Source of the DNA: Bifidobacterium mizhiense
Lineage (GTDB): Bacteria; Actinomycetota; Actinomycetes; Actinomycetales; Bifidobacteriaceae
NCBI RefSeq assembly: GCF_020884755.1
Contig: NZ_BPWE01000001.1
Span: forward strand, 558,001-622,000
Direction: 5' to 3'
DNA length: 64,000 nt
Shown here: positions 4,650 through 43,671 of the stretch, piece after piece
Layout of the letters: every line of letters begins with the position of its first letter
Position numbering within the stretch: the first letter of the stretch is position 1
Notes under the pieces: generated by a model
What the model was told of the DNA's origin: nothing
Database searches by the model: none
What the model saw: only the letters and a program-made list of their open reading frames with translations
Position numbers and translations under genes: made by a program

Positions 4650-5327
4650 ATGAACGAGCAGGAACGCATCGATAGGGACAAGCAGGATCGACGCAGCCGG
4701 CTGCTTGAAGCCCGACGACGTATCGACCTGACCCAGTGCCTGGACGCAGGGCGCAAGCTTGCCGATCTGCTGGCAGGCCAGGTACTTGCCAGGGTCGAAC
4801 GCTCCCGAGGCGGCCAAAGCCTGACCGTAGCTGCTTTTGCCTCCATTCGCGGGGAGATAGCCATGGACCCCAGCCTGGACCTGCTACTGGGCCGGGGCGA
4901 CCAGGTGCTCATCCCCATGCTGGGAACAGGCACCCAGGTAGGTTGGGGTCGATTGCAATCCCGGCAGGATCTGGATGACATGAAGCGGATTCCAGGTTGG
5001 CGGCCTGACGAACCCGATATGCCTGCCCTGCCGGCACGGGTCTTGGGTAAGGCCGATCTGATTCTGGTGCCAGCGCTGGCCATCGACCATGCCGGCATTC
5101 GTCTGGGTCGGGGCGGCGGCTGGTATGACCGGGCTCTAGGCCTGCGTGCCGAACAGTCCCCAGTGGTGGGCATCTGCTGGCCCGGCGAATTCGTGGAAGC
5201 CCCCCTGCCCCATCTGGACCATGATCTCCCCGTGGATGCAGTCCTGACGCCTGAAGGTTTCACGCCCACAGCCACAGGTCTGTCACGAAGGCCCGGCACA
5301 GACCATAATAGTGATGAACAAGGCTGA
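4650..5327 (+). CDS. 5-formyltetrahydrofolate cyclo-ligase
   Basis: Converts 5-formyl-THF to 5,10-methenyl-THF with ATP, salvaging a folate storage form. At 225 residues it has the family size. It carries the N-terminal basic KQDRRSRLLEARRRI helix, the LIPMLGTG strand, the ILVPALAIDHAGIRLGRGGG-type substrate loop followed by WYDRAL (about residues 143-168) and the C-terminal LPVDAVLTPEG motif. It is the first gene of a plus-strand group with the FmdB-like zinc ribbon and SAF genes, an order often seen in actinobacteria together with mscL. Confidence 0.93.
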   Translation: MNEQERIDRDKQDRRSRLLEARRRIDLTQCLDAGRKLADLLAGQVLARVERSRGGQSLTVAAFASIRGEIAMDPSLDLLLGRGDQVLIPMLGTGTQVGWGRLQSRQDLDDMKRIPGWRPDEPDMPALPARVLGKADLILVPALAIDHAGIRLGRGGGWYDRALGLRAEQSPVVGICWPGEFVEAPLPHLDHDLPVDAVLTPEGFTPTATGLSRRPGTDHNSDEQG

Positions 5328-5428
5328 CGAGAGGCCCGGTACCGATTCTTCTGGTCGAAGCCACCACTAGGATATTGGGTGTTGAACCAATCGTCGCGCG
5401 AACCGACCATCAGCGGAGGGAAAGAACG

Positions 5429-5641
5429 GTGCCCACCTATCATTATCGCTGCAAGAACTGCGGATACGACTTCACCAAGGAGCAGTCCTTCAACGACGAA
5501 CCCATCACCATCTGCCCCAAGTGCGGGCAACAGCAGGTCCGTAAGATCTTCTCCGCAGTGCCCATCGAGTTCAAGGGCCATGGCTTCTACCGGACCGACG
5601 GAGCCTCATCCTCCTCTTCGAGCTCTACAAGCAGCAAGTAG
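5429..5641 (+). CDS. FmdB-family zinc ribbon protein
   Basis: A 70-residue protein with a single zinc ribbon: PTYHYRCKNCGYDF supplies CxxC and ITICPKCGQQQVRKIF supplies the second CxxC. The C-terminus is a poly-Ser tail. I chose the GTG at 5429 because GGAGGG lies nine bases upstream and the family always begins MPTYxYRC; the frame is open further upstream but without family residues. The role is unknown; the family is described as a putative regulatory or rubredoxin-like metal-binding protein. Confidence 0.9.
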   Translation: MPTYHYRCKNCGYDFTKEQSFNDEPITICPKCGQQQVRKIFSAVPIEFKGHGFYRTDGASSSSSSSTSSK

Positions 5642-5713
5642 ACCAAGAGGCACATTCGACCACATCGACCATGCAGACCCTGACGCCGGCCAAGCTTCTG
5701 GCAGGCTGGGGAC

Positions 5714-6525
5714 ATGGTCGATTTTTCCATCTTCAGCAACAAGGGTAAGCCCTCAACGGCAGCCGGATCCCTGACCCGCCGACGGCGACTTTTTCGGCTG
5801 AGGCGCCTGGGGACCGCCCTGGCATTGGGGCTGGCAGTTTTCTGCACCTTGCAGATCCTGATCCAGGCCCAAGGCCACCTGTCTATATTGGTCGCCGCAC
5901 GACCCATTGCACGCGGATCAGCCATCGAACCTGCCATGGTCGAAACGCGGATCATGCATGATAGGGAAGGTCTGCCCGGCCTGATCTCCTCGTTTGCACA
6001 AGTCCGCGGACGGCGGCTGATGATCAGCGTCCATTCGGGGCAACCGCTGACCACGGCCATGATCAGTAGCAGACCGGCACAGCCACCCGGAACGACCCCG
6101 GTGACGGTCCGCCTTGCCGACGATCCGGGCAACCTGCAGGCTGGCGACCAGGTGAGTTTGCTGGCTTCGGGGAACTGCCCATCCGCCGCCAGCCCGCATC
6201 CCGCCCAAGACCGACCAGGTTCTGATAGGACACCAGGGCTTCCCCATAGCCAGCAAACCAGCGACCTGCAGACACCTACTTCCGGGCAGGCCTCAGGCAG
6301 CGGAAACTGCATGATAGCCGAGAAAGCTCTGGCGCTACAACCGGCGCAGACAATTCCCAGGGACCGATCCGACCCGGAAGGACGGGAGGGCGACCAAGTC
6401 CGGCAAGCGTCCCAGGCCGTCTTCGCTCTGAACGCTGGTCAGGCTCTGCTCTTGCTGTCGCTGGATCCATCAACCCCCGTCATCGCCATCCGCCCCGACA
6501 GCACTCCCGCACCAACACCCTCTAA
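5714..6525 (+). CDS. SAF-domain (CpaB/FlgA-like) membrane protein with lost stop codon
   Basis: Begins with a basic cytoplasmic stretch, a transmembrane helix (LGTALALGLAVFCTLQILI, about residues 34-52) and a SAF domain (VAARPIARGSAIEPAMVETRIM...GRRLMISVHSGQPLTTAMI). It then has an extracellular Pro/Ser-rich linker and a final QALLLLSLDPSTPVIAIRP segment typical of the end of CpaB-like proteins. The expected stop is missing: this frame stays open to 8386, through mscL and antisense to the next gene. A TAA at 6523-6525 sits one frame away, just before mscL, so a single-base indel near the 3' end (natural or sequencing error) is likely. I mark that TAA as the probable original end. The family usually acts in pilus or flagellar assembly, but no such genes are nearby. 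Confidence 0.6.
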
Positions 6526-25709: not shown

Positions 25710-28219
25710 ACATGTACGCCTCCATCGAGCTTAACTGGCGGCCCGGTCTCAGCGGCCGCCGAAGGATCCGCCACCGGAACCACCGCCGCCACCGTCGAAG
25801 GAGCCACCGCCGTCGCCAAACCCACCAATAACACTGCCAGAGCCGTTGCCGCTGGCCATGCCAATCAGGCCGCCAATCTGGTCGAGTCCCTGGGTCAATT
25901 GAGTACCCAAATCAATCACGGCACCTTGGCCGACCGCTGAATTGACAACCAATGCTTCAGGGTCACTCAGGGAGGAAGCCGCCGCAACATCCTGGCTGTA
26001 AGGCAGGAAGGTCCAGTAGAGCAGGCTGCCGCGCGCATTATTATTCAGCCAGTCGGAGTCGGTCAGGTCAGGGCTGGCCTGTGCCAGCTGAGCGACGACC
26101 CAGCTGCTTATGCCGAAGGCCGCAGCGTAAACCAGGTAACGGTCCCAGAGCACCAGATCCTCCACACCCCGGTGGCTAAAATCGCTGAAGTCCAGCAGAT
26201 AGCGCCGAAGTCCCGACACCTGCCCGGCCATGGGCTGTCCATTCCTGCTCAGCACCCGCCAACAGTTATAGCGCAAGGAGAATGTCACCACAGCCACCAG
26301 AAGCGCGGCCAAGGGCGCACGTACCAGTACGGTGCCCGGAAGAAATCCGGCCAACAGAATGAAAGCAGCCAAGAGCACGGCCAGGAAGGCAAAGACTCCT
26401 ACATTATGACGATAGGCGCGCAGGTCAGCATTGTTGGTCTCATACTCAACAGCCTCGTAAAAAGCCTGCAGGTAGTCCCTGCCATTATCGGTTTCAGTGC
26501 TGGCGAAGAGAGCAATCATCTCATACAGATCGAAGCGTTCATTCTCGGCGCCAATCATAGTGGAGGCACCTTCCAGCATACTCAGGCAGGCTTCCTCGCT
26601 TGAGGACAGGGACAGGGATGCTCGATCCTTGCTGCAGACCGGATTGATGACCACCTCCATGGACTGCTGTTTGTCTTTGAGCAGCAAGCGCTTCACCTGG
26701 GTCACGCGTCCTCCGCCGAAATTCGCCTGGTCCTTATACTCAACGGGAATAAGAGCGATGGCCCGCTTGGAGGCCAGGGAGAGAATGGTTGCTGACAATT
26801 GCCTGCCAATAGGGGATTCTCGGGTCAGCATCACATCGTTGATAACGGCGGCCACGGCGGGTGACAGATCAGGAGGCTGACGGTAGTAGATGATATCGCC
26901 TTGGTACTGGGAGTCTCCATAATTGCGGAAGGCATGACAAAGCATCACTGCAATCAGCGCGATAGCAGCCAAGAGTACCAAGACGCCCGTCAAGAGTCCG
27001 ATCCGCGCCCGGCTGGTCTGCTCAGCATGCCAGCGCTCGTACTGCGGACGCTCCTGCCCAACAATACGGTCACGTGCCGGCTGAGAATCGGTCCTGACCA
27101 CCGAGGAAGTCCTCCCCGCATCGAAGAGCACCACCAAATCCAGATGCTGGCCCGGCTCGATGCGGTCTGCGGAGAATCGGATACGGCTGTCATCCACCAC
27201 CTGGTAGGAACCCCTGCCAGCGAAGTGCAGCCAGGCCTTCGCGTCCTTGCCCTTCTCCGTTCCTGTCTGCTTGGGCAGCTTGACATTGGCGCTCACATGC
27301 TCAACGGGAATCTGGTTGGTGTCGCCCACGGGCTCCCATTGGAATTCGGCCACATCGGGATGGGTAGTGGTGACCCCGTGGAAGGTCATGTCGATGCGGA
27401 AGCGCCGACCTGAATCCTTGGCAGTCTGCGGAATATTCCAGCCCAGCTCCACCTGGCATTGATTCCCCAGATCGCCGCAGGCGGACCCTTGGCCCGCATC
27501 GCCCGGCTTGTAGGATTTCAGCCTTGAACCCGAGACCATGCCCATATACCAGGTGCCAGCCCAGTTCTTGTCCCAGTCGTGAATGTACCTGACTTCATCA
27601 GGATACTTTAGCGGGTTGGTCTGCCTATATGTGGAGCCATTAGTCAGGTCAGTCACGCTTACGTCGCTTATGCCGGTCAGCCGGTCAGGCTTGATCTGAT
27701 AGCGCTGGTAGAGCTCCCGCCAAGGGCGTTTGTTGCCGTGGTTGTCCTCGCGGGAATTCATGGTGACAGTCAGGGTCTGACTGATACGCAAATCCCCATT
27801 ATCCAGGACCTGGACATCATAATCCACCGAATCGTATACCAGGTCGGGACGATTCCTGTTGGACATATACAGGACAGCGAGGCACGTCACCAAGGCTGCC
27901 ACCAGAGCCAGCGCCAAGGCCCCGAGAAAGCGTGAGGTGCTCCAGGAGGGATGGCCCGAGGAGGGATGATTCGAGGCCGCCTTCCCGGAGGAGGCTGCTG
28001 GGGCGTTCACTGTCCGAAGTCCACTACGGGCGCCTGGCGGCTACCCTCGTCAGCCTGGAAATACTGGGCCTGACGGAAGTGGAAAAGAGAAGCGATGATG
28101 TTTGAGGGGACCGTCTCGATGCGGGTGTTGAACTTCTGGACCACATCATTGTAGAACTGCCTGGCGTAGGCGATCTTGTCCTCCAGGTCCTTGAGCTGAC
28201 GCTGCAAGTCCAGGAAGTT
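25425..28219 (-). repeat. Tandem 2.79-kb duplication, copy B
   Basis: Starts and ends in the 6-bp sequence GAAGTT (25425-25430 inside the aldo/keto reductase gene and 28214-28219 at the chimera joint). It contains the first 93 codons of the aldo/keto reductase, a whole DUF2207 gene and the lemA 3' end. Its 2789-bp period matches that of copy A (2791 bp). Divergence is uneven: long identical runs near the reductase 5' end, many changes in the DUF2207 gene. Confidence 0.9.
25749..28010 (-). CDS. DUF2207 membrane protein, copy B
   Basis: 753 residues. An N-terminal transmembrane helix (about 25-48), an extracytoplasmic DUF2207 domain starting at YDSVDYDVQVLDNGDLRISQTLTV, a second helix near residue 335 (GLLTGVLVLLAAIALIAVML), a cytoplasmic region, two more helices near 545-585, and a Gly-rich tail (SFDGGGGGSGGGSFGGR). 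It starts with GTG overlapping the preceding gene stop (GTGA). DUF2207 proteins are typically encoded next to lemA and are taken to be envelope proteins of unknown role. It is the diverged duplicate of the gene at 28549-30801. Confidence 0.9.
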   Translation of the reverse strand: MNAPAASSGKAASNHPSSGHPSWSTSRFLGALALALVAALVTCLAVLYMSNRNRPDLVYDSVDYDVQVLDNGDLRISQTLTVTMNSREDNHGNKRPWRELYQRYQIKPDRLTGISDVSVTDLTNGSTYRQTNPLKYPDEVRYIHDWDKNWAGTWYMGMVSGSRLKSYKPGDAGQGSACGDLGNQCQVELGWNIPQTAKDSGRRFRIDMTFHGVTTTHPDVAEFQWEPVGDTNQIPVEHVSANVKLPKQTGTEKGKDAKAWLHFAGRGSYQVVDDSRIRFSADRIEPGQHLDLVVLFDAGRTSSVVRTDSQPARDRIVGQERPQYERWHAEQTSRARIGLLTGVLVLLAAIALIAVMLCHAFRNYGDSQYQGDIIYYRQPPDLSPAVAAVINDVMLTRESPIGRQLSATILSLASKRAIALIPVEYKDQANFGGGRVTQVKRLLLKDKQQSMEVVINPVCSKDRASLSLSSSEEACLSMLEGASTMIGAENERFDLYEMIALFASTETDNGRDYLQAFYEAVEYETNNADLRAYRHNVGVFAFLAVLLAAFILLAGFLPGTVLVRAPLAALLVAVVTFSLRYNCWRVLSRNGQPMAGQVSGLRRYLLDFSDFSHRGVEDLVLWDRYLVYAAAFGISSWVVAQLAQASPDLTDSDWLNNNARGSLLYWTFLPYSQDVAAASSLSDPEALVVNSAVGQGAVIDLGTQLTQGLDQIGGLIGMASGNGSGSVIGGFGDGGGSFDGGGGGSGGGSFGGR

Positions 28220-28498
28220 GCGGTAGTGCCCAACCTTGGTGGCCACCAGCACATCCTGACGGGGTCCCTTCCAGGAGTCCAAAGCCTGGCGAACCAGTCG
28301 TTCATTGGTCTGCTCAGGACCACCTGACTCGTAGTAGGACCAGGCAGTATCCAGATGCCGACAACCGGCATCCAGGGCCTGATGGATGACGTCGATGGCC
28401 GTTGCCTGGTCCGGCTTGCCCTCGATGGACAATCCCATGCAACCCAGTCCGACCGCTGTCGTAGTAAAGGGCCCCAAGGCCCGCATCGACGATGTCAT
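28007..28498 (-). CDS. Chimeric gene: aldo/keto reductase N-terminus fused to LemA C-terminus
   Basis: 164 codons. The first 93 match the aldo/keto reductase (MTSSMRALGPF to GHYRNF). From LDLQRQLKDLEDKIAYARQF to VVDFGQ it is the LemA C-terminal region. The joint lies at GAAGTT (28214-28219), shared by both parents. The reductase half lacks most of the barrel and the LemA half lacks its membrane helix and coiled-coil start, so the product is unlikely to do either job. The reading frame is nevertheless intact and its GTGA overlap couples it to the downstream DUF2207 gene, so it may persist as a translation relay. Only a weak AGGAAG precedes the start. Confidence 0.85.
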   Translation of the reverse strand: MTSSMRALGPFTTTAVGLGCMGLSIEGKPDQATAIDVIHQALDAGCRHLDTAWSYYESGGPEQTNERLVRQALDSWKGPRQDVLVATKVGHYRNFLDLQRQLKDLEDKIAYARQFYNDVVQKFNTRIETVPSNIIASLFHFRQAQYFQADEGSRQAPVVDFGQ

Positions 28499-31010
28499 AC
28501 ATGTACAATGCCGCCGGCTTCCTATCGAGCTTAGCTTGTGGCCCAATATCAACGACCGCCGAAGGAACCACCACCGGAGCCGCCACCGGAGCCGCCGAAG
28601 GAACCACCACCGGAGCCAAACCCACCAATACCACTGCCGGAACTGTTGCCGCTGGCCTGGCCGATCAGGCCGCCTATCTGTTCGAGTCCCTGGGTCAGCT
28701 GAGTACCCAGATCAACCACCCTGCCTTGGCCAAGCATTGAATTTGCAGCCAATGCTTCAGGACCACTCACGGAGGAAGCGACCGAAACATTCTGGCTGTA
28801 AGGCAGGAAGGTACAGTAGAGCAGGCTCCCGCGCGCATTATTATTCAGCCAGTCGAAGTCGGTCAGTTCAGGGCTGGCCTGTGCCAGCTGAGCGACAACC
28901 CGGTCACTTATACCGAAGGCCGCAGCGTAAACCAGGTAGCGGTCCCAGAGCACCAGATCCTCCACGCCCCGGTGGCTAAAATCGCTGAAGTCCAGCAGAT
29001 AGCGCCGAAGCCCTGACACCTGACCAGCCATGAGCTGTCCATTCCTGCTGAGCACTTGCCAACTACCATAACGAATGGAGAATGCTGCAACAGCCACCAG
29101 AAGCACGGCCAATGGCGCACGTACCAGCACGGTGCCCGGCAGGAATCCAGCCAGCAGGATGAAAGCGGCCAAGAGCACGGCCAGGAAGGGCAAGATCTCT
29201 ATACCATGACGATAGGCACGCAGGTCAGCATTGTTGGTCTCATACTTGACGGCCTTGTCGAAAGCCTCCAGATAGACCTTGCCATGATTAGCTTCGGTGC
29301 TGGAGAAGAGAGCAATCATCTCGTACAGGTCGAAACGTTCATCCTTGGAGCCCATCAGAGCGGAAGCACCTTCCAGCATGGTCAGGCAGGCTTCCTCGCT
29401 TAAGGACAGGGCCAGGGAGGCTCGATCCTGACTACAGACCGGATTAATGACCACCTCCATGGACTGCCGTTTGCCTTTGTGGAGCAGCGAGCGCATCACC
29501 TTAGTCAGGGAACCTCCGCCGGAATTCGCCCGGTCCTCATACTTGACCGGAATCAGAGCGATGGCCCGCTTGGAGGCCAGGGAGAGAATGGTGGCTGACA
29601 ATTGCCTGCCAATAGGGGATTCTCTGGTCAGCATCAAATCGTTGATAACAGCGGCCACGGCCGGTGACAGATCAGGAGGCTGACGGTAGTAGATAATATC
29701 GCCTCGGTACTGGGAGTCTCCATAGGTGCGGAAGGCCTGCCAGAGCATCACTACAATCAGCGCGATAGCAGCTAAGACGGTCAGTACACCAGCCAAAAGT
29801 CCGATCCGCGCCCGTCTGGTCTGCTCGGCGTGCCAGTGCTCATACTGCTGGCGCTCCTGCTTGATGATGCGGTCACGCGCCGGTTGAGAGTCGGTCCTGA
29901 CCACGGAGGAAACCCTCTTCGCATCGAAGAGAACCACCAAATCCAGATGCTGACCTGGCCCGATCTGGTCAGCTGAAAAGTGGATACGGCTGTCATCGCC
30001 CACCTGGTAGGAACCCTTGCCAGCGAAATGGAGCCAGGCCTTGGCATCCTTGTCCTTCTCTGTTCCTATAAGCTTGGGAAGCCTGACATCAGCGCTCATA
30101 TGCTCGACGGAAATCTGGTTGGTGTCGCCCACGGGCTCCCATTGGAATTCAGCCACATCGGGATGGGCAGTAGTGACACCGTGGAAGGTCATGTCGATGC
30201 GGAAGCGCCGACCTGAATCCTCGGCAATCTGCGGAATGTTCCAACCCAGCTCCACCTGACACCGGTCCCCCTGGGCGCCGCAGGCGGATCCTTGGTCCGA
30301 GTCGCCCGGCTTGTAGGATTCCAATCCTGAGTCCGAGACTGTGCCCATATACCAGGTGCCAGCCATGGTCTTATCCCAGTCGGGAACCTGATCGAGGTTA
30401 TCAGGATCCGTCGGCGGATCGGCTTGCCTATATGTAGAGCCATTGGTCAGGTCGCGCACGCTTATGTCACTGATGCCCGTCAGCCGGTCGGGCTTGATCT
30501 GATAACGCTGGTAGAGCTCCCGCCAAGGGCGTTTATCGCCGTTGTCGTCCTCACGGGAGTTCATGGTTACGGTCAGATCCTGACTGATGCGCAAATCGCC
30601 GTTATCCAGGACCTGGACATCATAGTCCACTGAATCGTATACCAGGTCCGGCCAATTCTTGCTGAAGATAAGCAGAGCAGCGACTATGCACGTCACCAAG
30701 GCTGCCACCAAAGCCAGTGCCAAGGCTCGGAAAAAGCGGGAAGTGCTCCAGGAGGGATGGCCTGAGACCGGTTTCCCGGAGGAGGCTGCTGGGGCGTTCA
30801 CTGTCCGAAGTCCACTACGGGCGCCTGGCGGCTACCCTCGTCGGCCTGGAAGTACTGGGCCTGACGGAAGCGGAAAAGGGATGCGATGATGTTTGAGGGG
30901 ACCGTCTCGATGCGGGTGTTGAACTTCTGGACCACATCATTGTAGAACTGCCTTGCGTAGGCGATCTTGTCCTCCAAGTCCTTGAGCTGACGCTGCAAGT
31001 CCAGGAAGTT
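28214..31010 (-). repeat. Tandem 2.79-kb duplication, copy A
   Basis: Bounded by GAAGTT at 28214-28219 and at 31005-31010 inside lemA. It holds the aldo/keto reductase 5' part, the second DUF2207 gene and the lemA 3' part in the same order as copy B. Confidence 0.9.
28549..30801 (-). CDS. DUF2207 membrane protein, copy A
   Basis: 750 residues, the same architecture as the copy at 25749-28010: N-terminal helix, DUF2207 domain (LVYDSVDYDVQVLDNGDLRIS), central and C-terminal helices, Gly-rich tail. Differences are scattered, with small indels in the N-terminus (GKPVSGHPSW) and in the Gly-rich end. It starts with GTG overlapping the lemA stop and so keeps the ancestral lemA-DUF2207 coupling, which suggests this is the original position. 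Confidence 0.9.
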   Translation of the reverse strand: MNAPAASSGKPVSGHPSWSTSRFFRALALALVAALVTCIVAALLIFSKNWPDLVYDSVDYDVQVLDNGDLRISQDLTVTMNSREDDNGDKRPWRELYQRYQIKPDRLTGISDISVRDLTNGSTYRQADPPTDPDNLDQVPDWDKTMAGTWYMGTVSDSGLESYKPGDSDQGSACGAQGDRCQVELGWNIPQIAEDSGRRFRIDMTFHGVTTAHPDVAEFQWEPVGDTNQISVEHMSADVRLPKLIGTEKDKDAKAWLHFAGKGSYQVGDDSRIHFSADQIGPGQHLDLVVLFDAKRVSSVVRTDSQPARDRIIKQERQQYEHWHAEQTRRARIGLLAGVLTVLAAIALIVVMLWQAFRTYGDSQYRGDIIYYRQPPDLSPAVAAVINDLMLTRESPIGRQLSATILSLASKRAIALIPVKYEDRANSGGGSLTKVMRSLLHKGKRQSMEVVINPVCSQDRASLALSLSEEACLTMLEGASALMGSKDERFDLYEMIALFSSTEANHGKVYLEAFDKAVKYETNNADLRAYRHGIEILPFLAVLLAAFILLAGFLPGTVLVRAPLAVLLVAVAAFSIRYGSWQVLSRNGQLMAGQVSGLRRYLLDFSDFSHRGVEDLVLWDRYLVYAAAFGISDRVVAQLAQASPELTDFDWLNNNARGSLLYCTFLPYSQNVSVASSVSGPEALAANSMLGQGRVVDLGTQLTQGLEQIGGLIGQASGNSSGSGIGGFGSGGGSFGGSGGGSGGGSFGGR

Positions 31011-31382
31011 CTGGTTGGCCTTGAGCTCAGGGTAGGCCTCCGCCCGAGCCATCAGAGTGACCAGGGATTGGCCCAGCCGCTGCTCGGCACCGGCACGGGC
31101 CTGTATCTGGTCCCCGCCAGCCGTCTGGGCCTGGGCCACGTCGGCGCGGGCTTTGGTCACCTCCTCCAGGACGGTGGACTCGTGTGAGGCGTAGCCCTTG
31201 ACCGTCTGGACCAGATTGGGCACCAGGTCGGAACGCTGCTTGAGCTGGACGTCAATCTGGGCCCAGCCATTGGCTACTCGGTTGCGCAGATTGACCAAAC
31301 CGTTGTAAGCCCCGATACCCCAGATGACCAGCAACACGACCAGCAAAACGATGATGATGAGCACGATCATTGATACGGACAT
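30798..31382 (-). CDS. lemA: LemA family protein
   Basis: 194 residues with a single N-terminal transmembrane helix (SMIVLIIIVLLVVLLVIWGIGAYNGLV) and the LemA helical domain: NRVANGWAQIDVQLKQRSDLVPNLVQTVKGYA, the hallmark, then LKANQNFLDLQRQLKDLEDKIAYARQFYNDVVQKFNT. An extracytoplasmic four-helix protein of unclear function, usually paired with DUF2207 or TPM-type envelope proteins. It heads the minus-strand group lemA-DUF2207-chimera-DUF2207-aldo/keto reductase-pgeF. Confidence 0.94.
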   Translation of the reverse strand: MSVSMIVLIIIVLLVVLLVIWGIGAYNGLVNLRNRVANGWAQIDVQLKQRSDLVPNLVQTVKGYASHESTVLEEVTKARADVAQAQTAGGDQIQARAGAEQRLGQSLVTLMARAEAYPELKANQNFLDLQRQLKDLEDKIAYARQFYNDVVQKFNTRIETVPSNIIASLFRFRQAQYFQADEGSRQAPVVDFGQ

Positions 31383-35055: not shown

Positions 35056-35385
35056 ATGAAACAATCCGAGCAGAACTCCATCAAATCAGAAAATACCATT
35101 CTTCCTTTGGGATCCGTGGTGAAAACCAGAAGAGACCCGGGTACCCTGCTGGTTATCATCGCCCGTGCTCCGTTGACAGTCATGCATGGAACAACGGGTT
35201 ACTTTGACTATGGTGCCGTACAATTCCCGTATGGCATGACTGATCCGGCCAAGATCGTTTTCTTCAACCGCCAAGACGTGACGGAAATAGTGTTCATGGG
35301 ATATATCAACGCCGAGGAACGATCCTATGAACGAAGGTTTGATGAAGTCACCAAATCAACCTCCTACCCCCACCTTCATCTCTGA
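35056..35385 (+). CDS. DUF4176 domain protein
   Basis: 109 residues with the DUF4176 pattern: ILPLGSVVKTRRDPGTLLVIIARA, FDYGAVQFPYGMTDPAKIVFFNRQDVTEIVFMGYINAEER. GAGGG lies eight bases before the ATG. In Firmicutes and some actinobacteria such proteins are encoded beside type VII (ESX-like) secretion and LXG toxin genes, and are thought to be accessory or immunity factors. Here the secretion core is absent from the window, so this is an orphan. The following remnant (35560-35829) fits a lost toxin gene. Confidence 0.8.
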   Translation: MKQSEQNSIKSENTILPLGSVVKTRRDPGTLLVIIARAPLTVMHGTTGYFDYGAVQFPYGMTDPAKIVFFNRQDVTEIVFMGYINAEERSYERRFDEVTKSTSYPHLHL

Positions 35386-37410: not shown

Positions 37411-38127
37411 TCATGCCGCGGTGATGAGGCCTCCGAAGAGGACGATGGCGATGGCAATCAGTTCAATGATGAAGAACATGGACAGTGCCGACCAGCTGTG
37501 AGTCAGCGTGTTCCAGGGGGAATCCTTGCGCACGCAGACCAGGATAGCCACAAAAATAACGGCAAAGACCGCCACGCCCAGCCCGGCCGCGATGATGCCC
37601 AAGTTGGCCGCGTTGGCCAGGATGGCCTGATGCTGATAGACCACGAAGGTGCTGTACCAGAAGTTCATCTTGAGCAGGCAGAGGCCGGCGATCAGCTGTT
37701 CGGCAGCCAGGCTCAGCACGAAGACCACCCGCCAGAACCAGGAAGACGACTCGATGATGGACATGCCGATGCCCATAAAGGTCAGCACGGTCACCGTCCA
37801 AGCAATCAGGGCAATGCCGCGCGGATCCAGAACCGAGGCATAGTGGAGCACGCCCTGGGTATGGTTGATAGCCAGCGAGCGCCCATATCCATAAGGAATG
37901 ACGATGGCCAGAAGGACCGCCAGTGCGAAGACAACCCAGCGGACCGGGCGAGCACGGCGCTGCTCAATCTCAGCCAGGGAGTATTCAGAGTCCGGAATGG
38001 TCGCCTCAGGATGAGCCGAAACCTTGTTCACTGCGGTCGCCTCATCCGGGTGCGGTTGCACGACTGAGGAACCCGTTGCCTCGCTTCTGCCGGATTCCGC
38101 GCCATCCGCATCGTCGAATTGCTCCAT
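37411..38127 (-). CDS. Five-helix membrane protein of unknown function
   Basis: 238 residues from the ATG at 38127, chosen for the GGAGG upstream. The first 65 residues are polar and acidic (EQFDDADGAESGRSEA). Then come five hydrophobic segments: WVVFALAVLLAIVIPYGYG, IALIAWTVTVLTFMGIGMSII, WRVVFVLSLAAEQLIAGLCLL, ANLGIIAAGLGVAVFAVIF and MFFIIELIAIAIVLFGGLI. No known motif. Convergent with the previous gene. Confidence 0.75.
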   Translation of the reverse strand: MEQFDDADGAESGRSEATGSSVVQPHPDEATAVNKVSAHPEATIPDSEYSLAEIEQRRARPVRWVVFALAVLLAIVIPYGYGRSLAINHTQGVLHYASVLDPRGIALIAWTVTVLTFMGIGMSIIESSSWFWRVVFVLSLAAEQLIAGLCLLKMNFWYSTFVVYQHQAILANAANLGIIAAGLGVAVFAVIFVAILVCVRKDSPWNTLTHSWSALSMFFIIELIAIAIVLFGGLITAA

Positions 38128-38280
38128 CGGCGACCACACCTCCAAGTCCGCTACTCGTGGACACATCGCCTACAAGCTTATACCGGGCGGCGCACCCGCG
38201 CTTAAGAGCAGAAAGTACAATTCGCAAACACTTGGCATACAGGCAATAGCAGATAAATGGAGTCATCCTGAAAGCGACAC

Positions 38281-38370
38281 AGCCCACCCACACAGAAGCG
38301 AGGAACACCTGATTTCGGCGACCAAAAATGCTGCAGGCCCAAAATCATCCCCCATGTGCCCGAGGAGCAC
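38281..38370 (-). repeat. Outermost decayed CRISPR repeat-spacer-repeat
   Basis: Two strongly decayed copies of the CRISPR repeat (38281-38308 and 38342-38370) are separated by exactly 33 bp, the spacer length of the active array. The second keeps TCATCCCCC at one end and GGAGCAC at the other. This lies 1.8 kb beyond the last recognisable array unit and shows the ancestral array once reached at least here. Confidence 0.55.
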
Positions 38371-38615
38371 CCGGGCCGCGTCTTCTGACCAGCCGATCAT
38401 GCGCATCTGAAAACCATGACAATCCGTGTTCAAACACCGTGCTAGTCATATACAAAGCAGACAAAACCCTCAATCAGGGCACACCAATGCGATTACTCCG
38501 GCTGGAGAGAATCAAACACTCATGTTCGAACTATGAAGCGGTTATGGATTCTCCCCGGCGCTCCAATAGTGATTCTTTTACTGATTGCAGCAGCCTGTGG
38601 AGCTTGGTGAGCGAA

Positions 38616-38903
38616 TCAGTCGAACTGCCTGATGCCGATGACATCACGGAAACTCACATACTCGTCACCGGGGCCGCAACCTGTACCGTAATTTGTACCA
38701 TAGTAGACGCGATCCGACTGGATCATTCTCCTATCCTCATCATCCAACGAATCCCAGACCCGGCGCTCGGCTTCATCCATTTTCTCGGTGATGGGATGCC
38801 TCGACGCATAACTGTCGATCAGATCCTGGGGGATGTTGTCATGAGTGGTGCAGGCCTTATCCTTGGTTGCCATTTCTCTCATGAAATCCTCATCCATGGC
38901 CAT
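38616..38903 (-). CDS. Small acidic protein of unknown function, copy 1
   Basis: 95 residues, start MAMDEDFMREMATKDKAC with GAGGAG just upstream; the frame is open further up but copy 2 supports this start. The middle segment KMDEAERRVWDSLDDEDRRMIQSDR, shared almost exactly with copy 2, is helical and acidic; the end is VIGIRQFD. No signal peptide or membrane helix. No family recognised. Its position inside the degenerate trailer of a CRISPR array, its small size and its acidity make an anti-CRISPR- or CRISPR-linked role conceivable, but nothing in the sequence proves it. Confidence 0.65.
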   Translation of the reverse strand: MAMDEDFMREMATKDKACTTHDNIPQDLIDSYASRHPITEKMDEAERRVWDSLDDEDRRMIQSDRVYYGTNYGTGCGPGDEYVSFRDVIGIRQFD

Positions 38904-38955
38904 TCGTCTCCTCTCATCGTTGTGAACCTGTAGGGCATCCATCCCATGCCCCGCA

Positions 38956-39030
38956 GGATTGTCCCCGCATCTGCTAGGGACACAGAGCATTCTCATTTTT
39001 CCATCGAACAGACGGCTGGACCATCCCCAG
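38956..39030 (-). repeat. Decayed CRISPR repeat-spacer-partial repeat
   Basis: A repeat at 38956-38983 (about 19 of 28 positions kept, including GGAT, TCCCCGC and CAC), a 34-bp spacer remnant, and a truncated repeat beginning GGACCATCCCC at 39018. Lies between copies 1 and 2 of the small gene. Confidence 0.7.
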
Positions 39031-39139
39031 AGAATCAAACACTCATGTAAGAACTATGAAGCGGTTATAGACTCTCCCCCAGCGCTCCAGTGGCGATTCT
39101 CTTGCTGATTACAAAAACATACAGGAATCCGGGGATGAA

Positions 39140-39424
39140 TCAGTCGAACTGCCTGATGCCAAGGACATCGTAGAAACTCACCTTGGTGTCGCCGCCGAAG
39201 CCAGCACCATAGTTTGTCCCATAGTATGTACGATCCGACTGGATCATTCGCCTGTCCTCATCATCCAGCGAATCCCAGACTCTGCGCTCTGCATCATCCA
39301 TGTCATCAGTAATGGGATACTTTGACGTATAGTCATCAATCCTCTTCTGGGGAATATGGTCATAAGTGCTACAGGCCTTATCCTTGGTTGCCATTTTTCT
39401 CATGAAATCCTCGTCCATAGCCAT
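39140..39424 (-). CDS. Small acidic protein of unknown function, copy 2
   Basis: 94 residues, clearly homologous over its full length to copy 1 (38616-38903): MAMDEDFMRKMATKDKAC, then DDAERRVWDSLDDEDRRMIQSD and VLGIRQFD. Changes are mostly conservative and the frame is open, so at least one of the two seems to be under selection. GAGGAG precedes the start. A decayed CRISPR repeat pair follows on the right side. Confidence 0.65.
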   Translation of the reverse strand: MAMDEDFMRKMATKDKACSTYDHIPQKRIDDYTSKYPITDDMDDAERRVWDSLDDEDRRMIQSDRTYYGTNYGAGFGGDTKVSFYDVLGIRQFD

Positions 39425-39476
39425 TCATCTCCTCTCATCTTTACGAACATGAGGGTATCCTTCCGATTCCCCTGCA

Positions 39477-39610
39477 GGATTGTCCCCGCGGATGCCAAGG
39501 AGCACTTTCCTACTGCCGCACCAGCCACACCGCCAATGGGATTATCCCCGCATATGCAGGGAGCGCACAGCATTCTCGTCCCTGGCCGAGTAGACAGCCG
39601 GATCATCTCC
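39477..39610 (-). repeat. Decayed CRISPR repeats between small-gene copies 2 and 3
   Basis: Repeats at 39477-39505 (nearly complete, one extra base) and 39539-39566 are separated by exactly 33 bp. A truncated GGATCATCTCC follows at 39600, again one spacer length further on. This is a real remnant of the array. Confidence 0.8.
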
Positions 39611-39739
39611 AGAGAATCAAACAATCCTCTTCAAACCATACTCATGTTCAAACCATGAAGTGGTTATGGATTCTTCGCCGACACTCCTAATAGTGATTCT
39701 TTTACTGATTGAAACAGTATGTCGGAGCCCGGGAATGAA

Positions 39740-40029
39740 CTAGTCGAATCGCCTTATACCGATAACTCCATAGAAATTCACCTCTGCTTTGCCGCCGCCG
39801 CAACCTGTACCGTAGTATATGCGATCCTATTGGATCATTCTCCTGTCCGCATCATCCAGCGAATCCCAGACCAGGCGTTCGGTTTCACCCATTTCTCGAT
39901 GAGGGGATGTCTCGACGGATAGCCATCGATCAGATCCTCATGAATGTTGTCATGACAGGTACAGGCACAATCCCTGGATGCCCTTTCTCTCATGAAATCC
40001 TCAAGTATTTTCTGATCGCCTCCTCTCAT
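39740..40029 (-). pseudogene. Small acidic protein, copy 3 (broken)
   Basis: Homologous to copies 1 and 2 but dead: EDFMRERASRDCACTCHDNIHEDLIDGYPSRHP is followed by a frameshift after LIEK, then ERRVWDSLDDADRRMIQ, an in-frame TAG and DRIYYGTGCG...VIGIRRFD. The start region is also altered (MRGGDQKILEDF). It lies next to the array-proximal decayed repeats. Confidence 0.75.
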
Positions 40030-40066
40030 ATTGGTGAACCTGAGGACATCCATTAGATGTCCTTTA

Positions 40067-41670
40067 AGATCAGCCCCGAGGATGCGGGGGAACACGCTCG
40101 ATGTGGTCGAGCAGCAACTTCTCCGTCAGGATCATCCCCGATGCCCTGCAAGCCGCCTGTAGAATCATCCCCGCGGATGCAGGGAGCACCTCGGCAAGCC
40201 AGAGGATTGGTCCGACGGCAAGGGATCATCCCCGCGGATGCGGGGAGCACCGACTGGAAGACCAACCCACAGACACAGGTGAAGGATCATCCCCGAGGAT
40301 GCGGGGAGCACCAGTGCGTTGACTAGCTGTATCGCCCCTTCAATCAGTGCGCCCACGCTGGGATCATCCCCGCAGATGCGGGGAGCACTCCAGGACCACG
40401 CCTCCGGGACGGCATCCGGCCGGATCATCCCCGCAGATGCGGGGAGCACCGACACCGATATCACGGTGCGCATCTACAACGAGGATCATCCCCGCAGATG
40501 CGGGGAGCACTGCTTGTCTGGCTTGTCCTGGGCGTTGATCCGGGGATCATCCCCGCAGATGCGGGGAGCACAGGGTCAGCTCCGTGTCATTGGGAGACAG
40601 CTTGGGATCATCCCCGCAGATGCGGGGAGCACGAGGCATTGACAACAAGGAGGTTGTCATGAACAGGATCATCCCCGCGGATGCGGGGAGCACGGATACA
40701 TGTACCGCAGGAACGAGTCTACGCCGGGATCATCCCCGCGGATGCGGGGAGCACGGTCCATTTGTTATTGGAAGCGATCTGCTGGAAGGACCATCCCCGC
40801 GGATGCGGGGAGCACAAGGCGCTTCATAAGCCGATACTGCACATCCGAGGATCATCCCCGCGGATGCGGGGAGCACATGAACGAGAACAAGGTGCGGACC
40901 AGGAAGCAGGGGATCATCCCCGCGGATGCGGGGAGCACCGACTGGAAGACCAACCCACAGACACAGGTGAAGGATCATCCCCGCGGATGCGGGGAGCACA
41001 ATATCCTTCATCGTTCTTCCCTTGCTCTCTCGGGATCATCCCCGCGGATGCGGGGAGCACCAGCCTCGTCGGGATTGTCTGGAGCACCCTTAGGGATCAT
41101 CCCCGCGGATGCGGGGAGCACTCTGGGAGACATCATCAGGGATATAGGCCATACGGATCATCCCCGCGGATGCGGGGAGCACATAAAACTCCCATATGTC
41201 GCCCACCCGTGGGACGGATCATCCCCGCGGATGCGGGGAGCACCAGGGCGGCGCATCCAGCCTGGCCAACCTCGCCGGATCATCCCCGCGGATGCGGGGA
41301 GCACCGACGGAATTGGTAGCATGTATACCTACTGAGAGGATCATCCCCGCGGATGCGGGGAGCACATCATAGCAAAGGAGACGAGGTTGAAGCTCACAGG
41401 ATCATCCCCGCGGATGCGGGGAGCACTCGGTCATGAGAGTGACCTCCAAGGGCGTCACGGGATCATCCCCGCGGATGCGGGGAGCACCATCGTGACATGT
41501 CCAGGTAGGTTCGTTTCGCAGGATCATCCCCGCGGATGCGGGGAGCACTCATGCTTTCTCCCTTGGCCCGAGTTCCCAGTGGGATCATCCCCGCGGATGC
41601 GGGGAGCACGGGTCGAACGGCATGTATCCGAACGTCCGCAGGGGATCATCCCCGCGGATGCGGGGAGCAC
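40067..41670 (-). CRISPR. Type I-E CRISPR array, 25 good repeats plus two decayed
   Basis: 28-bp repeats, as read on the plus strand GGATCAT + CCCCGCGGATGCGGGG + AGCAC, with 33-bp spacers and a 61-bp period. Good repeats start at 40162, 40223, 40284, 40361, 40422 and then at 61-bp steps to 40849, at 40911, and on at 61-bp steps to 41643. Decayed ones lie at 40067 and (12 bp only) 40129. The repeat is the actinobacterial I-E type in reverse, so transcription is on the minus strand from the leader at the right. Repeats at 40361-40605 carry G-to-A in the loop. The spacer at 40312-40360 is 49 bp. The spacer at 40251-40283 is identical to that at 40939-40971. Confidence 0.98.

Positions 41671-42261: not shown

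Positions 42262-43671
<1,410 letters not shown>

Follow-up and report, generated by a model that had tools for sequence, protein, structure and literature searches.

The 64,000-nucleotide (nt) stretch of the Bifidobacterium mizhiense genome analysed here and called the window in what follows (contig NZ_BPWE01000001.1, positions 558,001 to 622,000 of the forward strand, from a genome of 2.09 Mb designated G000) contains three tandem units at the trailer of a type I-E array of clustered regularly interspaced short palindromic repeats (CRISPR), each built around a minus-strand gene, or gene remnant, for a small acidic protein that we call fam1. The explanation that we favor, with a probability of roughly 0.4, is that fam1 constitutes cargo borne by the array, probably derived from phages, which has been kept by selection and is more likely to act on phages than on CRISPR-associated (Cas) proteins. 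The components of this explanation differ in strength: that fam1 genes have the anatomy of array cargo and evolve under selection is observed and very probable; their origin from phages, argued by analogy with two other families (fam2 and fam3), stands at about even odds, and an anti-phage action of their product, equally an analogy, is proposed tentatively.

The regular array lies at 40162..41668 on the minus strand, where its repeat reads GTGCTCCCCGCATCCGCGGGGATGATCC. Its period of 61 nt and the presence of cas6e (42982..43671, minus strand), which matches TIGR01907 with 90.8 bits, over the cut-off of that family, identify the locus as a type I-E CRISPR-Cas system. The leader side of the array faces the cas genes, which start at 42982 and continue past cas6e with more genes of type I-E. 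Given the orientation of the repeats and the side on which the cas genes lie, transcription of the array would proceed along the minus strand and lead away from the cas genes, with the trailer toward lower coordinates; the region of the three units would therefore be the trailer. One spacer is present twice in the array, within repeat-spacer-repeat stretches (40218-40311 and 40906-40999) that are 98% identical, a trace of internal duplication.

The units follow one another at spacings of 521-524 and 582-600 nt and, along the minus strand, share the same layout: a decayed repeat, some 50-60 nt with a GAGGAG ribosome site, the open reading frame (ORF), about 105 nt, a half repeat, a 33-nt spacer and then the next repeat. 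Gene A (38616..38903, minus strand, 95 amino acids) and gene B (39140..39424 with the stop included, minus strand, 94 amino acids) are open from their predicted starts, each with its GAGGAG site, and their products have isoelectric points of 4.47 and 4.56, respectively. Copy C (39740..40014, minus strand) has decayed through a frameshift and in-frame stops, matching fam1 in two frames with one in-frame stop each (TAG within 39743-39898, TGA within 39811-40002), and has a decayed counterpart in the related genome G007. The preliminary description of this DNA had reported just such an arrangement, with acidic genes for 94-95 residues among decayed repeats at a CRISPR trailer, two of them open with ribosome sites and the third broken, and our analysis agrees with it on every one of these points. 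It had also considered the protein to be undescribed, in accordance with the lack of any fam1 match in Pfam, PHROG or PADLOC; NCBIfam returned partial matches only (E 0.047 and 0.088), and sequence searches of the PDB gave no significant match, the best being a partial one (0.025) to QdtB. Orthologues of gene A in G004, G007 and G019 retain 91.6-97.9% amino acid identity. Regarding the start, codon 1 specifies isoleucine in 2 of 13 intact fam1 copies, and codon 3 is ATG, GTG or TTG in 12 of them; the CTG of gene A in G007 rules out that codon 3 is invariably a usual start codon. In five genomes (G019, G004, G010, G009, and G020) a pseudo-spacer of about 42-44 nt, the normal spacer being 33 nt, lies directly upstream of the B-type gene and carries the conserved inverted repeat AGTAT-NNNN-ATACT, which may be a promoter or operator.

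Repeats were scored over 25 fixed positions, a scale on which mononucleotide shuffling gives 0.13 chance occurrences per kb at scores of at least 16. All the relics lie on the minus strand. Decayed repeats are found upstream of gene A (38956..38983, 19/25), upstream of gene B (39477..39504, 16/25), at 39539..39566 (22/25), and upstream of copy C (40067..40094, 18/25), beyond which the repeat-like segment at 40162 reaches 23/25. The 33-nt spacer between the repeat ending at 39504 and that starting at 39539 is identical in G007 at 30 of its 33 positions. Half repeats form the downstream borders of unit B (39018..39028, GGACCATCCCC on the plus strand) and unit C (39600..39610, GGATCATCTCC on the plus strand). 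The footprint of the array extends further than the preliminary description had recognized, for another decayed I-E repeat is present beyond gene A (38281..38308, 17/25), with a score equalled by 3 of 300 dinucleotide shuffles. At the equivalent offset relics score 20 in G004 and G009 and 19 in G019 (0/300 shuffles each), and weakly, at 16, in G007 (21/300 shuffles); in G003, G010, G012, and G020 nothing scores above 14 there. A possible extra relic, recognized by eye, lies at 38342..38370, about 61 nt from the previous one, and its counterpart in G009, 62 nt on, scores 16/25. CRISPR repeats or their relics consequently flank the fam1 genes on both sides, with relics past gene A in five of the nine genomes that carry fam1 (the one of G007 being weak), which places the genes inside the footprint of an older and longer array: fam1 is a gene embedded in the array, a spacer of gene size. 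The locus is like other bifidobacterial I-E arrays in its repeats, 61-nt period, cas6e on the leader side and decaying trailer repeats, but differs from them in that gene-sized stretches with an intact, selected ORF replace the 33-nt spacers at its trailer.

Could these genes be simply phage debris that is trapped in the array and drifts neutrally? Some facts would agree with this possibility: copy C is decaying, as are the fam2 copies of G011 and G025, and G057 has a raw phage fragment between its repeats (see below). The codon test contradicts it for genes A and B. Across the 13 intact copies from nine genomes, the ratio of nonsynonymous to synonymous rates (omega) is 0.197 when left free (log likelihood -1218.50) against -1267.12 when fixed at 1, and 52 of about 95 positions are invariant; we thus consider neutral debris very improbable. 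Within the window, genes A and B differ by 0.88 at synonymous sites (dS) and 0.13 at nonsynonymous sites (dN), and their dN/dS of 0.15 is far from the value near 1 that, according to the preliminary description, would refute its proposal. It follows from the omega of 0.20 that fam1 is a protein-coding gene under selection, the frame of which has been kept across species. Reading the units as RNA elements was rejected: they have no Rfam match up to E 1, the conserved 3' stretch exhibits little covariation (3 of 21 pairs changed on both sides), and the 5' leader hairpin none in its consensus (0/7). A scan for terminators gave chance levels, with two terminator-like sites against 1.3 expected.

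In the fam1 gene tree the copies assemble by type rather than by genome: the C pair of G000 and G007 has support 100/100, the A group with four genomes 88/88, and the B-type group with all nine genomes 97/96. Since A groups with A, B with B and C with C across species, the triplication is older than the divergence of G000 from G007 and was followed by losses in other genomes, and the copies are old paralogues. Of the earlier proposal that recombination between repeats may have amplified a gene that became part of the array, the amplification with unit borders on repeats and the membership of the array are supported; a recent local event is not.

Fam1 is present in 9 of 27 genomes of the same genus and lies in all nine between the CRISPR trailer and a conserved neighbour that serves as synteny anchor, a gene for 251 amino acids (37411..38166 in the window, minus strand) without Pfam match that occurs in 27 of the 27 genomes. 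Relatives with the locus are assigned to the honey-bee gut group, namely B. apousia (G004), B. asteroides (G010 and G009), B. choladohabitans (G012), B. mellis (G020), and Bifidobacterium sp. 7101 (G003). The trailer beside fam1 belongs to type I-E in G000, G007, G010, and G020, and to type I-C in G003, G004, G009, and G012, each of which has cas8c. For G019 the region studied yielded six I-C-like repeats, and the genome has no cas6e match and, for cas8c, only a weak 54-residue match elsewhere, so neither a I-E nor a I-C effector was found. An earlier study had already reported a single site common to I-E and I-C systems in bee bifidobacteria, in passages that make no mention of fam1 (PMC4449606). 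Being kept with I-E, with I-C, or where neither effector was found, fam1 is tied to the locus and not to one Cas system. In the tree of the 251-residue neighbour, the fam1-free G011 and G025 come first, followed by a clade of 11 genomes that comprises the nine carriers, together with G008 and G022 without the gene; this tree disagrees in detail with that of fam1, for instance in the position of G010, and hence the locus has probably recombined between species. The nine genomes represent a single inherited locus, and the link between fam1 and CRISPR counts by itself as one event; independent support for the link with arrays consequently comes from fam2 and fam3.

The same distribution bears on the suggestion, made in the preliminary description, of an addiction-type gene, the precedent for which is CreTA, where Cascade, directed by a degenerate repeat-spacer unit, keeps a toxin repressed. 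Like fam1, CreTA consists of a small element adjoining degenerate repeats (PMC8501985), but CreT is described as a toxic RNA, whereas fam1 is a selected protein, and intact fam1 exists where no I-E cas6e was found. A seed scan for guides at positions 1-5 and 7-11 in seven genomes retrieved two 10/10 matches, both of a palindromic gene leader with its own or a paralogue's leader (flanks CTT and ACC), and, as best others, matches of 9/10 (flanks TCG, ACC, and TTC); nothing among these guide-to-promoter matches is convincing, the scan having had no chance control and the local protospacer adjacent motif not being known. In each unit a single conserved ORF was followed. The addiction proposal fits badly, and we give it hardly any weight. 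Nor do spacers target the units: none of 928 spacers from 16 genome regions matches them, apart from the units' own trailer spacers, and the next-best match reaches 68% identity, compared with 64% for the best of 150 shuffled spacers.

The family fam2, first seen as an acidic ORF of 86 amino acids at the trailer of G022 and decayed in G011 and G025, occurs in 16 of 189 genomes of the bacterial family. I-E repeats scoring at least 18/21 lie within 900 nt of 7 of 17 fam2 loci (two in G102 and one each in G057, G001, G022, G011, and G025), against a background of 0.06 per kb at 15/21; the scan left out the hits of G050, without tblastn hit in the stretch, and those of G153:C5 and G155:C15, which have no array within 20 kb. 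In G102 fam2 sits inside a 376-nt interval with near-perfect repeats on either side, in G057 inside a 1637-nt interval with perfect repeats on either side, in G001 it is flanked by a 19/21 repeat and decayed repeats, and in G022 by relics of 16/21 and 18/21. Another array lies about 0.8 to 2 kb from fam2 in G110, G052, and G160. Six loci are without array (G113, G074, G079, G155, G153, and G159), and no I-E repeat of at least 15/21 was found within 900 nt of fam2 in any of them, which led us to reject solitary repeat units borne by phages as the vehicle. The surroundings of fam2 are those of phage head genes: in G113 it comes immediately after a gene with a match to head maturation protease, and in G074 genes with matches to scaffold and capsid come after it, the gene ahead of it resembling by eye the G113 protease. 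Its counterpart in phage Bbif-1 is BBP_0938 (34% identity over 71%, E 3e-7), which is preceded by 'gp4 phagic protein' and stands two genes ahead of the capsid gene. The stretch of G110, 93% identical over 854 nt to that of G113, has fam2 and pieces of the G113-type protease beside an array with I-C-like repeats.

A parallel picture is offered by fam3, found in 20 of the 189 genomes. One copy in G006 fills a 305-nt spacer between two perfect repeats, and a second lies between the last regular repeat of the array and a repeat of 22/28. Altogether, 7 of 24 fam3 loci have I-E-like repeats within 1.5 kb (two in G006, and one each in G057, G088, and G001, with G145 and G144 weak). Elsewhere fam3 is located between head protease and scaffold genes (G164 and G137), or upstream of the capsid gene (G096); three further ORFs neighbouring fam3 had no PHROG match. 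In phage head-gene clusters, fam2 and fam3 both take the position where head protease and scaffold meet. Solitary repeats were rejected as vehicle for fam3 too, none above threshold being present within 1.5 kb of the loci in G164, G096, G137, and G049. Profile comparison relates fam2 and fam3 distantly (hhalign probability 66%, E 5.5e-5). Two copies of fam3, at G022:C7:16439 and G007:C1:1428150, have no nearby CRISPR repeat, and the one neighbouring ORF tested at each has no PHROG match.

Eleven I-E array stretches, scanned with repeats of at least 16/21 and intervals up to 1700 nt, comprise 18 intervals above 150 nt, 6 of 51-150 nt, and 558 of normal size, counts that do not provide a rate because the stretches were chosen for carrying such genes or relics. 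In the 1637-nt interval of G057, fam2 is accompanied by a scaffold gene and by a capsid gene that the repeat truncates, which makes the interval raw phage DNA between repeats; fragments of a head-morphogenesis gene (E about 1e-4) occur in one interval each of G102 and G057. The orientation of the cargo varies, with fam1 and one G006 copy of fam3 running with the array, and fam2 of G102, G001, and G022 and the other G006 copy of fam3 running against it. In G102 (L140) an interval of 1460 nt at 4709-6168, with I-E repeats or relics on either side, holds a DUF6036 nucleotidyltransferase, a cargo candidate that is not obviously of phage nature. Among the literature matches listed, consisting of titles and the beginnings of abstracts and with subscription papers mostly outside, there is no description of genes carried between array repeats.

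These comparisons also bear on another explanation, in which fam1 is an ordinary host gene at a chromosomal site shared with CRISPR loci and the repeat borders reflect only recombination around it. The single inherited locus of all nine genomes would suit this explanation, as would the retention of fam1 across the change of array type and where no effector was found, and its lack of significant similarity to fam2 or fam3. We nevertheless consider it unlikely, because relics outside the units, present in five of nine genomes and weak in one of the five, place the genes inside the array and because other genes are likewise embedded in other arrays.

More weight, albeit still limited, may be given to fam1 as a captured protein of the anti-CRISPR (Acr) kind, now domesticated to restrain Cascade or the acquisition of spacers; we regard this as somewhat improbable. 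The protein is small and acidic, and its gene lies within the array and on the same strand. Moreover, Pseudomonas Mu-like phages carry Acr genes in the interval from the head protease/scaffold gene to the gpG homologue (PMC4704812), a neighbourhood like that of fam2 and fam3, and a B. pseudocatenulatum prophage has an AcrIC5 homologue adjoining a solitary repeat (PMC10651486). The same protease/scaffold neighbourhood of the Mu-like phages also hosts a putative decoration protein, h (PMC4378225), and therefore location alone is not decisive. Small accessory genes beside head protease and scaffold are common to these phages and to fam2 and fam3; what differs is that fam1 is fixed in host arrays with many spacers. 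Large I-E arrays stand behind intact fam1 in three carriers (147 repeats in G007 and 80 each in G010 and G020, with up to 3 mismatches, compared with 26 in the window genome), so immunity is hardly shut off in these, and fam1 lacks any PADLOC match or significant PDB match, no dedicated Acr library having been searched. As for the anti-CRISPR or Cas partner raised in the preliminary description, a protein bound specifically to the type I-E Cas machinery fits badly with intact copies beside I-C arrays and in G019, and this retention of fam1 under I-E, I-C or neither leads us to favor phages over Cas as its target.

Several observations weigh against fam1 being phage-derived cargo with anti-phage action. 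First, no relatives of fam1 were found in prophages or phages among 189 genomes of the family, 396 of the order (a sample that includes some fam1 carriers), viral contigs and 50,697 phage records, nor any further convincing match in genome contigs beyond the six bee strains, or in plasmids. The weak matches that turned up in other genera, in other families and across the order did not exceed what chance predicts for that many genomes, and two of the three order-level hits, upon inspection, fell within unrelated longer frames. This absence of fam1 away from the CRISPR locus in the collections searched does agree with the link between gene and array proposed in the preliminary description, which had named a wide spread of the family away from CRISPR loci, with an ordinary function, as the other finding that would refute it; neither of the two refuting findings was made. 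Second, neither fam2 nor fam3 gives a significant match to fam1 when profiles are compared. The three families share sizes of about 80-115 amino acids, acidity, no known domain found, and location between CRISPR repeats in several genomes, but fam1 stands apart from the head-cluster proteins by sequence or profile similarity and by phage context, without a convincing copy outside the CRISPR locus. Third, the gene's own strand is without promoter-like site; the promoter scan stayed at chance level with one such site, on the plus strand, against 2.1 expected. Fourth, fam1 has been lost in G008, where the I-C array and cas8c are still present, and is absent from G022, G011, and G025. The analogy has flaws of its own: the searches for fam2 and fam3 were seeded from array-embedded genes, which biases the first member of either family toward lying in an array, the fam3 copy in the 305-nt spacer of G006 has no stop before the next repeat, and fam3 of G049 adjoins a scaffold gene, but on the opposite strand.

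In evolutionary terms, cargo carried by arrays and kept by selection would have the following history. Most likely, cargo units arise when DNA enters arrays between repeats and then multiplies or moves by recombination between repeats, the first entry of gene-sized DNA perhaps occurring through oversized capture by Cas1-Cas2 or through recombination. Fam1 may have entered a type I-E array in an ancestor of the bee-gut B. asteroides group; recombination between repeats would then have multiplied it to three, and purifying selection would have kept it while spacers were added in front, even where a I-C array replaced that of type I-E. Its product might act on phages, for example as a head-assembly factor that, wrongly dosed or timed, would spoil virion assembly, an idea deriving from the location of fam2 and fam3 and not from fam1 itself. 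By extension, we tentatively propose that some bifidobacterial arrays serve as a gene-carrying platform, in which phage DNA, coming in the cases seen from the head protease-scaffold-capsid region, settles between repeats in pieces of up to 1.6 kb, and small acidic phage proteins persist as protein-coding 'spacers' against phages or for tuning CRISPR, with fam1 as the version that became fixed in a clade. Arrays are usually understood as collections of short spacers that encode no protein, and programs that call arrays may pass over gene-sized intervals or break them up. If selected genes do lie between repeats in several lineages, then arrays would also keep and move protein-coding cargo, and their genes would be candidates for new anti-phage or CRISPR-controlling proteins; that the phage relatives of fam2 and fam3 share one head-cluster location makes the question testable now.

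Two other features of the window deserve mention. At 25749-31382 there are two similar large genes in tandem (753 and 750 amino acids), and the 3' end of an accompanying, presumably LemA-like gene reappears at 28007-28552, indicating a local tandem duplication. A DUF4176 protein (E 8e-18) is encoded at 35056-35385, with an ORF of 458 amino acids without Pfam match over cut-off on one side and, on the other, a gene that we take to be rpsO.
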